Of a stretch of 64,000 nt of DNA, positions 37,093 to 39,680 are shown in pieces. The translations under genes and the position numbers were made by a program. The notes below the pieces were generated by a model. The model was not told the DNA's origin. It ran no database searches and saw nothing but the letters and a program-made list of their open reading frames with translations. Each line of letters opens with the position of its first letter. The first letter of the stretch is position 1. The DNA is from Psychromonas hadalis ATCC BAA-638 (lineage in GTDB: Bacteria; Pseudomonadota; Gammaproteobacteria; Enterobacterales; Psychromonadaceae), in assembly GCF_000420245.1 (NCBI RefSeq), contig NZ_ATUO01000001.1, forward strand, positions 1 to 64,000, read 5' to 3'.

Positions 37093-37497
37093 TTAGCTTT
37101 GAATAAGATAAAACTCAAAGATCTCTTGTTGCTCCGCAGCCTCCACAATCGCTTTGATCATTAAAGCAAAGCCGGCAGGTTGTGGGCGTTTTTTTCTTAT
37201 CTTTTGCCACAGTGTAACTTCGGGTGTTTCTGACTCAACAAACTGTTTTAAATTGGCAATATCATCGTTATTAAAACGAAACAGTTGTGCGTCATAACGG
37301 TGTGTTTCGGGGTTAACTGCTAGCCATTCATAATTTTGCTCAAATAATACTTTTTGCTGATCGTAGGCGATATAAAGTGTTTCACCAATCCCTGTTATTG
37401 CAGGTATATCAGTTAATTCAAAAGCGGAGTATTCACCTGTTTCATCATTTGGTAACGCGTAAATGATATTGTCATTATTGGTAATATAGCGTTGCAT
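37093..37497 (-). CDS. Hypothetical protein, 134 aa
   Basis: A soluble protein, MQRYITNNDNIIYALPNDET at the start and EFYLIQS at the end, with no signal peptide or membrane segment. AGGATAAAC precedes the ATG at a good distance, and codon use matches neighbours. Its stop abuts the stop of the upstream chemoreceptor gene (37092/37093). I do not recognise the family. It has a repeated acidic surface pattern and an RKKRPQPAGFALMIKAIVEA stretch. No function assigned. Confidence 0.75.
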   Translation of the reverse strand: MQRYITNNDNIIYALPNDETGEYSAFELTDIPAITGIGETLYIAYDQQKVLFEQNYEWLAVNPETHRYDAQLFRFNNDDIANLKQFVESETPEVTLWQKIRKKRPQPAGFALMIKAIVEAAEQQEIFEFYLIQS

Positions 37498-37597: not shown

Positions 37598-37876
37598 ATG
37601 GCTAGAACTGTTGCCGCATTACACATTTTGGTAAAGCACAAAGAGCAAGCTGAAGACATTCTTGCACAGCTTAAAAAAGGAGCAAAGTTTCAAACCCTTG
37701 CAAAAAAACACTCCAACTGTCCATCGGGAAAAAAGGGGGGGGATTTAGGTGAATTTAAAAAGGGACAAATGGTACCCGCTTTTGATAAAGCTTGCTTTAC
37801 GGGTGAGATTTTAACGCCATTATTAGTAAAAACAAAACATGGCTGGCATGTGCTAAAGGTACTTTACAGGACCTGA
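37598..37876 (+). CDS. ppiC: Peptidyl-prolyl isomerase C (parvulin), with a replaced 3' end
   Basis: Single-domain parvulin of 92 residues, cytosolic, very close in length and motifs to E. coli Ppi[37 protein letters not shown] and AFDKACF. AGAGGTT precedes the ATG. The last seven codons (K-V-L-Y-R-T-stop, 37856-37876) appear to have been supplied by an inserted segment. A second, differently spelled copy of the same codons lies at 39230-39250, beyond the insert. Confidence 0.95.
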
Positions 37877-39240
37877 TTAACACTTCTTAACTATCAACTT
37901 CTTGAATTATATTTATTAATTTGAATTTCACACTGAAACACAGCATATTAAACAAATCTAAAAAAAAGGAATTGATATGCTGTTGTATGAACCTACAGAT
38001 AATAGAAAACTGAATATCAGCTATTCATTAGCCAATTTGACTGACTCAACAAGCAGGTTACAGACAGGGATTACGGATAACTTTGCAACAATGTCATTGT
38101 CTAAGCTAATCGGTGGCGGTATTAAGTCTATAGATGAACTGAATGCTGCTGAGCAGTGTTTACGAGCACTGATCTTTCATGAAACTGTTGTACGACAGTC
38201 TCCATGTGTCACAGTGGACAATTTATTTTCACCTGAATTGGAGCTGGATAAGTCTCCAGTACATTTATCTGACTATCTAGGAACTGACATCATCAAGCAC
38301 TATGTCGGTAATATTAACAATCTCAGAGGCTTCACTGACGAGAAACAGGCAATGGCCGAAATTTCTCGAAGAAATGAAAAGAATAAGCAAAAAAAGGAAT
38401 TACATCGAAAACATGGATTTACTGAACCAGTATTTTCTTATTCATCTGATAGCTGCCCATTAGGGTACGTAGCTAACAACATAACTGATTACACAAGATC
38501 TTGTTTTGCGAAAGACTTAAGTCTTCAATCTAGATTTATACTTCCAATCGCTCAAACCAAGCTATCCTCTTATATTTCATATCCATTTCTGTTGAATAAC
38601 TTTGAAAATACAGCTCTGAACCAAGAAAAGGTATATCAAGCAAAAGAGTTTTTTGGCTCTATTGATGATGTGTGGAAGTTATATAATGAGAAGCTAAGAA
38701 ACCAAATCGAATTTTCAACACCAGTATTTTTGAATATTGTTTTAACTAGAGCATCGAACAAAGATGACATTGGTAGAGTGATTCTTGAATTGCGAGATGA
38801 GTACAGAGGTGCTAGAGCAGAGCTTTGGAGACATTTTGATAATGCTGATGAGTGTGATTCTAAGGACATTCTTATAGACATCGAGGATATAACTAAACGG
38901 ATATTTAATGAGTCATTGCTTTCAAGTTCTAACATGAAACTCGTTGCATCTCTTGATAACAGGAAGAGATTTGTTTCTTACTTGACTGCTGGAGCTATAC
39001 TTTTCAGTGTGGCTGACGCTGGTACTGCAATGGCAATACTTGCTCTTACGAATGCATATTTGAATAGTTTAACTGTTGGAAATTCAATGAATATGACGGC
39101 AGCACGCCTGACGGTTCAACATATACAGCAACTGAATCAGGAAGGACTTTTTACTAAGTTCTTCACACCTCAAGAAATACGCGATATTGAATGTTCATTA
39201 AGAAATTATAGTTAAATGAACATATTACGAAGGTACTTTA
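37856..39240 (+). mobile_element. Putative integrated element at the 3' end of ppiC
   Basis: An identical 11-bp sequence AAGGTACTTTA occurs at 37856-37866 (inside ppiC) and 39230-39240, 1374 bp apart. After the first copy the frame reads TAC AGG ACC TGA, after the second TAT CGC ACT TAG; both encode Y-R-T-stop. This is what integration into the end of a gene with restoration of its reading frame leaves behind. The segment holds one gene with Arg codon use unlike its surroundings and no recombinase. The type of element is not known; homologous replacement is an alternative. Confidence 0.7.
37977..39215 (+). CDS. Unknown cargo protein of the ppiC insert (412 aa)
   Basis: No family recognised. 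The protein starts MLLYEPTDNRKLNISYSLAN. It is mainly hydrophilic, with one hydrophobic stretch near residues 340-370 (YLTAGAILFSVADAGTAMAI), and a segment FLNIVLTRASNKDDIGRVIL followed by ELRDEYRGARAELW near 255-290. Of 23 arginine codons that I counted, 13 are AGA, 2 AGG, 5 CGA, 2 CGC, 1 CGG and none CGT, whereas tig, hupB and lon nearby use mostly CGT. AAGGAA precedes the ATG. Foreign origin is well supported. A defence or stress role would be a guess from its isolated mobile context. Confidence 0.85.
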   Translation: MLLYEPTDNRKLNISYSLANLTDSTSRLQTGITDNFATMSLSKLIGGGIKSIDELNAAEQCLRALIFHETVVRQSPCVTVDNLFSPELELDKSPVHLSDYLGTDIIKHYVGNINNLRGFTDEKQAMAEISRRNEKNKQKKELHRKHGFTEPVFSYSSDSCPLGYVANNITDYTRSCFAKDLSLQSRFILPIAQTKLSSYISYPFLLNNFENTALNQEKVYQAKEFFGSIDDVWKLYNEKLRNQIEFSTPVFLNIVLTRASNKDDIGRVILELRDEYRGARAELWRHFDNADECDSKDILIDIEDITKRIFNESLLSSSNMKLVASLDNRKRFVSYLTAGAILFSVADAGTAMAILALTNAYLNSLTVGNSMNMTAARLTVQHIQQLNQEGLFTKFFTPQEIRDIECSLRNYS

Positions 39241-39250
39241 TCGCACTTAG
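39221..39250 (+). pseudogene. ppiC: Displaced original 3' end of ppiC
   Basis: Thirty bases reading H-I-T-K-V-L-Y-R-T-stop, matching the C-terminus of PpiC proteins (ours H-V-L-K-V-L-Y-R-T). It has no start of its own. Its TAG overlaps the AGGAG ribosome site of the next gene, implying that ppiC and that gene were once 10 bp apart. Confidence 0.75.
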
Positions 39251-39260
39251 GAGAACATTT

Positions 39261-39680
39261 ATGGTTTATGTGATTGCACAGTTTTCCCTATTAGCAGTGA
39301 TCGCATGGCCTATCACTAATTTACACTTTTCTATTATTGGGCTGTTATTAATTTTTATTGCCATAGTGGTCGCTGTATGGACCTTAATGACCAACAAACC
39401 AGGGAACTTTAATATTCGGCCTATTCCTAAAATAACGGGTGAGTTGATCACCCATGGTATCTATCGTTATATTCGTCATCCAATGTACAGCTCCCTCTTT
39501 TTTGCTGGCTTAGGTATTATTTTTTGTATGCCTATCTGGTGGAAGTTAGTTGCTTGGCTATTGTTAGTGGTCACATTAATTTTTAAAGCGCGTTTTGAAG
39601 AGAGGGCATTGGTTAAGCATTATGTGGGTTATCAAGCTTATCAAAAAAATAATAAGGCTTTTATCCCCTTTATTTGGTGA
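39261..39680 (+). CDS. Isoprenylcysteine carboxyl methyltransferase-like membrane protein
   Basis: Membrane protein of 139 residues with about four hydrophobic segments and the signature YRYIRHPMYSSLFFAGLGI near residue 80, which binds SAM in the ICMT/PEMT family. The C-terminal RFEERALVKHYVGYQAYQ is also typical. I choose ATG 39261 because AGGAGA (39249-39254) lies 6 bases upstream. An in-frame ATG at 39216 directly follows the stop of the inserted gene and would read through the old ppiC tail. Bacterial members' substrates are mostly unknown. Confidence 0.85.
   Translation: MVYVIAQFSLLAVIAWPITNLHFSIIGLLLIFIAIVVAVWTLMTNKPGNFNIRPIPKITGELITHGIYRYIRHPMYSSLFFAGLGIIFCMPIWWKLVAWLLLVVTLIFKARFEERALVKHYVGYQAYQKNNKAFIPFIW

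Follow-up and report, generated by a model that had tools for sequence, protein, structure and literature searches.

A putative integrase-less element at the 3′ end of ppiC in Psychromonas hadalis and its likeness to defence-carrying serine-recombinase islands

Organization of the ppiC locus

The window analysed, i.e., the whole stretch of 64,000 nucleotides at the start of contig NZ_ATUO01000001.1 of Psychromonas hadalis ATCC BAA-638, includes the gene ppiC (nt 37598–37876, forward strand), predicted from its ORF and a Pfam Rotamase match (3.5e-20) to code for a parvulin-type prolyl isomerase of 92 aa. It is followed, on the same strand, by a 100-bp leader with an AAGGA ribosome site, extending from the ppiC stop codon to the start of the next gene (nt 37877–37976), by an ORF coding for an orphan protein of 412 aa (nt 37977–39215) and by a methyltransferase gene of the PEMT/ICMT type (nt 39261–39680; ORF, Pfam PEMT 8.9e-13). 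Upstream of ppiC, on the opposite strand, a 134-aa ORF (nt 37093–37497) without significant Pfam match is conserved in other Psychromonas with 77–81% identity.

The sequence AAGGTACTTTA is present at both nt 37856–37866 and nt 39230–39240, with a spacing of 1374 bp. The first copy continues into TAC AGG ACC TGA (nt 37865–37876), which forms the present end of ppiC, and the second into TAT CGC ACT TAG (nt 39239–39250). Both tails encode Tyr-Arg-Thr-stop, all four codons being different and synonymous (4/4), with 6/12 bases changed and the peptide identical. This repeat with its two synonymous tails, reported in a preliminary description of the locus, was confirmed and found to be unique, since the degenerate tail pattern AARRTNYTNTAYMGNACNTRR matches just these two sites in the whole 3.98-Mb genome. 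For the second copy, the reading frame can be followed upstream by three more codons (CAT ATT ACG AAG GTA CTT TAT CGC ACT TAG, nt 39221–39250), giving H-I-T-K-V-L-Y-R-T-stop; the stretch immediately before the AAG codon is element DNA and not ppiC, since other insertions contain it too, as AATGAACATRTTACT.

The two copies might in principle be a chance repeat enclosing a normal resident gene, as congeners do have other genes (sfsA and others) in the interval from ppiC to the methyltransferase. However, an estimate from base composition gives an expectation of 3e-5 hits of the tail per 1.4 kb, and the 412-aa gene is not seen as a stable vertical trait of close relatives, an alternative the preliminary description had allowed for, being absent from 23/23 other genomes of the genus. 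The same structure moreover recurs at other ppiC loci (see below), which refutes this explanation, and we regard it as hardly credible.

Read as an insertion, the element would extend from about nt 37858 to nt 39231 (1374 bp), with the left and right copies of the core AAGGTACTTTA as putative attL and attR, the tail TAC AGG ACC TGA as a donor-borne replacement of the last ppiC codons and TAT CGC ACT TAG as the displaced original tail. Its predicted right end, or P arm, is AAGAAATTATAGTTAAATGAACATATTACG (nt 39200–39229). The insert contains a single ORF longer than 100 aa, on the same strand as ppiC and without similarity to recombinases, which upholds the earlier statement that no integrase is present and that the element is non-autonomous or decayed. 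Its G+C content (35.5%) is on the low side of the spread of the window, 8% of the equal-sized windows being as low or lower.

The methyltransferase gene, outside the element, starts 10 bp after the old ppiC end. That this was the ancestral gap, as previously proposed, is plausible in view of the overlap between the TAG stop and the AGGAG ribosome site, but such a gap was not seen in any relative: the exact empty site (ppiC, 10 bp, methyltransferase) of the window's own species was not found among the relatives compared, and congeners have intervening genes. Both sfsA and a secreted-looking protein of 117–121 aa, lying behind ppiC in congeners (loci L003, L082 and L092), are missing from nt 37876–39261 of the window; the window's species would therefore have lost or moved them.

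Short tail units behind ppiC in other genomes

Additional ppiC tails were found in a second Psychromonas genome, the MAG GLG-1 (G018), where three of them follow one another at distances of 55 and 54 bp, thus forming two tandem tail units of 54–55 bp behind ppiC. The DNA after the third tail matches, with 81% identity over 68 bp (E 1e-9), the sequence immediately downstream of ppiC in P. aquimarina, which has a single ppiC end. P. aquimarina thus represents the unoccupied state of the site and the terminal tail of GLG-1 is the old one, in line with the order proposed for the window in the preliminary description.

Extra tails right behind ppiC also occur in 8/129 genomes of another genus (g6), taken as Shewanella by inference from the best matches of the ppiC regions to named loci; most of these genomes match Shewanella first, with G428 and G466 marginally closer to Vibrio loci. 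Six of the eight have units of 58 bp, and in G402 and G232 the second tail lies about 122 bp on. Up to eight ppiC tails were counted, in G471. The tandem 58-bp units at this locus (L132, G471:C1:1077461–1077844; eight tails) and in G223 (L127, G223:C1:4279776–4279985; five tails) each combine a complete K[VI]LYRT-stop tail with a spacer of 37 bp containing GCCAACCAAGTTRCTGGC. Expressed otherwise, the 58-bp unit corresponds to two 28-nt half-sites and a dinucleotide, and nothing else; such tandem units of 54–58 bp have no ready explanation. The synonymous-only pattern among the array tails is partly built into the search pattern, which is not so for the window.

In 9/10 of the loci where short tail units follow ppiC, the window counted, the extra tail is preceded by a shared sequence unrelated to ppiC, either AATGAACATRTTACT or AATGATTACGTTACT. 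The exception is G434, where the first extra tail is located inside a longer ppiC duplication; at this locus (L130) the duplication covers about 100 bp of the ppiC 3′ end, tail units of 58 bp come next, and one of the tails reads KILYRI-stop. The 30-nt P arm of the window matches in register those of GLG-1 (21/30), G232 (21/30) and G402 (20/30), none of 20000 random 30-mers being as good, and matches among these four P arms range from 20 to 26/30. Likewise, TACAGGACNTGA forms the ppiC end beside the short units in both G232 and G402.

Alternatively, slippage or unequal exchange might have duplicated the ppiC 3′ end locally, with the 412-aa gene inserted later in an unrelated event, as the 58-bp arrays of the presumed Shewanella look partly like slippage expansion and G434 contains a longer, partial copy of that end. 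This is hard to reconcile with the DNA preceding the extra tails, which is not derived from ppiC yet common across genera (window, GLG-1, G402 and G232), with the two window tails, which differ in half of their bases while the peptide is the same, and with the comparison of GLG-1 and P. aquimarina, which reveals an insertion and not a copy of the native end. A duplication origin is therefore already largely refuted and appears improbable.

When a related pattern, excluding native ppiC ends, was searched in 395 genomes of the order, matches away from ppiC were retrieved in about 11 genomes, similar to the reversed control. The tail matches away from ppiC (L143–L150, L155, L157 and L158) were rejected as chance.

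Serine-recombinase islands at the ppiC 3′ end

In G014, a member of the genus Psychromonas, ppiC ends with KVLYRI-stop, with a changed codon, and about 100 bp behind it lies the gene for a 503-aa large serine recombinase (LSR) with Resolvase, Recombinase and Zn-ribbon domains. A second ppiC tail, KVLYRT-stop, occurs 9912 bp on. The last gene of the island, 74 bp before this tail, codes for a CAP12-type TIR domain (PF10137, 3.8e-32; PADLOC candidate PDC-S35, 2.5e-64). The TIR protein (433 aa) has a repeated PSAIAEMTKQL motif and its TIR domain at the C-terminus; beside the LSR, the 9.9-kb island (L204, G014:C24:33500–44500) includes genes for a small resolvase and for a ParB-like protein.

In G066, taken as Vibrio on the same grounds as given above for Shewanella, ppiC likewise ends with KVLYRI-stop and is followed by an LSR of 529 aa, 34% identical to that of G014. 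Here the two tails, the far one being KVLYRT-stop, are 11808 bp apart, and the genes of the 11.8-kb island (L205, G066:C4:319000–332500) include those of a nuclease of the EcoRV type (PDB sequence match to EcoRV, 9e-42), of a D12 methylase, of an antirestriction-like protein and of two further proteins, one BT4734-like and the other helicase-like with 682 aa. Other cargo at the same place and integrases beside ppiC 3′ ends, which the preliminary description suggested looking for, are both present in these islands, in which the LSR directly follows ppiC.

When the island ends were joined to reconstruct attP, a dyad symmetry was found in G014 (19/28; 0/2000 shuffles) and in G066 (15/28; p 0.004). 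Its centre falls in both islands between the first and second positions of one and the same Lys codon, and neither attL nor attB has such symmetry. This points to AA as the putative central dinucleotide of LSR recombination, as deduced from symmetry rather than from an observed crossover. Since these two bases of the codon form the dyad centre in both islands, the probable crossover point in the window is the AA of nt 37856–37857 or the position immediately to its right.

The G014-type LSR family is rare. No PF07508 protein adjoining ppiC was found in the fetched loci of 126 presumed Shewanella genomes, and no LSR relative in phage and plasmid records at E 1e-20. Viral contigs contained neither attP-like patterns nor ppiC, and none of their LSR relatives (29–31%) adjoins ppiC.

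The cargo gene

Searches with the 412-aa protein against Pfam, PHROG, PADLOC, NCBIfam, PDB (by sequence), plasmids, phages and viral contigs gave no match. The one relative found is a distant 404-aa protein with 24% identity in another genome of the same order, whose gene (L203:1285–2499, reverse strand) lies beside a GNAT-like gene. The AlphaFold model computed without alignment had a mean pLDDT of 36 and was useless. As no sigma-70-like promoter was found in the leader, the gene may be transcribed by read-through from ppiC. By its position next to attR, the place occupied in G014 by the defence gene, the orphan may be tentatively taken as a defence-type gene, although nothing in its own sequence says so.

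Origin of the window insert

Taken together, the insert of the window is probably a mobile, integrase-less element with one gene, inserted site-specifically at the last codons of ppiC and related to the LSR islands. This reading is carried by the anatomy of the insert, the recurrence at the same codons in other genomes, the empty/occupied pair and the two LSR islands. The element would have entered by site-specific recombination with the last ppiC codons as target, its left half-site (P′) supplying a substitute end, so that the host gene would remain whole with its proper C-terminus, while the old end would be pushed to the right flank, with the right half-site (P) before the second tail. It could thus be a stripped relative of a G014/G066-type island, having retained no more than both att half-sites and the final gene ahead of attR, and its insertion would be due to an LSR that acted in trans or has since disappeared. 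The earlier proposal of a site-specific integration with a donor-borne tail and a displaced old end is in this way supported by the two autonomous islands, by the short units at ten loci (window included) and by the pair P. aquimarina/GLG-1. As for the accompanying suggestion of a mobilisation in trans, no PF07508 protein was found in the whole genome of the window, which excludes a resident LSR as the present agent in this assembly, although 11 tyrosine-recombinase matches are present.

The reconstructed attP of the window has no dyad (8/28, p 0.66), and the same applies to the other short elements. The link to the LSRs consequently lies only in the shared site, the shared Lys codon and the moderate match of the window P arm to the G014 island (17/30, p about 0.001). 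With G066 the P arm does not match (7/30). For these reasons, and because no LSR adjoins ppiC in the sampled presumed Shewanella, the short elements may have been moved by a different enzyme that shares this target. A tyrosine recombinase, or another enzyme, could indeed use the ppiC end independently, the LSR islands sharing the target only. This is consistent with the lack of an LSR-type attP dyad in the short elements, with a genome that has tyrosine recombinases and no LSR, and with the gene end being donor-borne within the identity block, as is common for tyrosine integrases that target 3′ ends (PMC5704250). On the other side, both autonomous islands at the ppiC end have LSRs, the P arm of the window resembles that of G014, and a simple, unvalidated motif scan revealed no tyrosine recombinase motif near ppiC in any fetched locus. 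We consider such an independent enzyme the less likely source, but one with an appreciable chance of being right.

Beside the preferred reading of a stripped LSR-island relative, a broader and rather doubtful one is that the ppiC 3′ end serves as a cassette platform of marine Gammaproteobacteria, where serial newcomers would supply a working gene end and push older ends downstream, with the recombinase acting in trans. The minimal unit would then be two back-to-back att half-sites (54–58 bp, with a full substitute ppiC end) and a filled unit would carry one gene; if true, the locus would be a readable record of past insertions, as with the eight tails of G471.

The ppiC 3′ end as integration site

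The preliminary description did not know the ppiC end as an attachment site, and none of the papers searched describes integration at ppiC; the main text of PMC10083194 does not mention this gene. On the comparisons made here, the ppiC 3′ end is a recurrent landing site, and would be a new integration site of the LSR type, carrying defence genes. Serine-recombinase islands at this end restore their target and carry in anti-phage genes, for EcoRV-type restriction-modification and for a TIR effector; the SCC elements of staphylococci behave in much the same way. A second ppiC tail may thus serve as a simple marker for finding new defence genes, the 412-aa orphan being a candidate, and the two LSR/attB/attP sets supplied here make the putative core dinucleotide directly testable.

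Comparison with known systems

In Vibrio, mobilizable islands that occupy the 3′ ends of yicC and trmE use tyrosine integrases, as does SGI1; element-borne DNA restores the gene end, and restriction-modification is listed as cargo of MGIVchMoz6 (PMC5704250). The ppiC islands are similar in the housekeeping-gene 3′ end restored by element DNA and in the defence-type cargo; in contrast, the autonomous ones use serine recombinases. A tyrosine recombinase at one end, as in islands of this type, was detected neither in the insert nor, by a weak motif scan, near ppiC in the fetched loci. IMEs with serine recombinases usually disrupt their target gene, gene-end restoration being described for tyrosine integrases (PMC5704250), whereas at ppiC an LSR is combined with a restored target. 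The dyad-symmetric attP of LSR genomic islands is found in G014 (19/28) and G066 (15/28) but not in the window (8/28). A promoterless-looking ORF and a recombination site beside a fixed platform, together with tandem units, recall integron cassettes; the insert, however, is without integron integrase and known attC-type site, and the units end in a protein-coding tail.

A CIME, or cis-mobilizable element, is an integrated element that has lost recombinase and transfer genes while retaining attL and attR, and that can be involved in accretion (PMC5704250). The window element does retain attL and attR without recombinase or transfer genes, and the tandem units of relatives resemble accretion. 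It differs in its size of about 1.4 kb with one gene, down to 54–58 bp without genes in the short units, and in an ICE or IME parentage that is putative.

SCC/SCCmec, pseudo-SCC and ECC are islands moved by LSRs at the 3′ end of a housekeeping gene, with direct repeats, variable cargo, remnants and multiple attR sites (PMC6222049, PMC7029136). The ppiC islands likewise combine an LSR, a housekeeping-gene 3′ end, direct repeats, variable cargo and integrase-less remnants. An LSR at the element end beside the target is present in the G014 and G066 islands and missing from the insert and the genome of the window. Instead of the rlmH 3′ end with its TATCATAA core, the window has ppiC and AAGGTACTTTA, the core being an AAR Lys codon; a single LSR gene is found here, and the hosts are marine Gammaproteobacteria rather than Firmicutes. 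By analogy, the ppiC elements would work like SCC/ECC and like CIME accretion, but they are not SCC, as target, core and recombinase differ.
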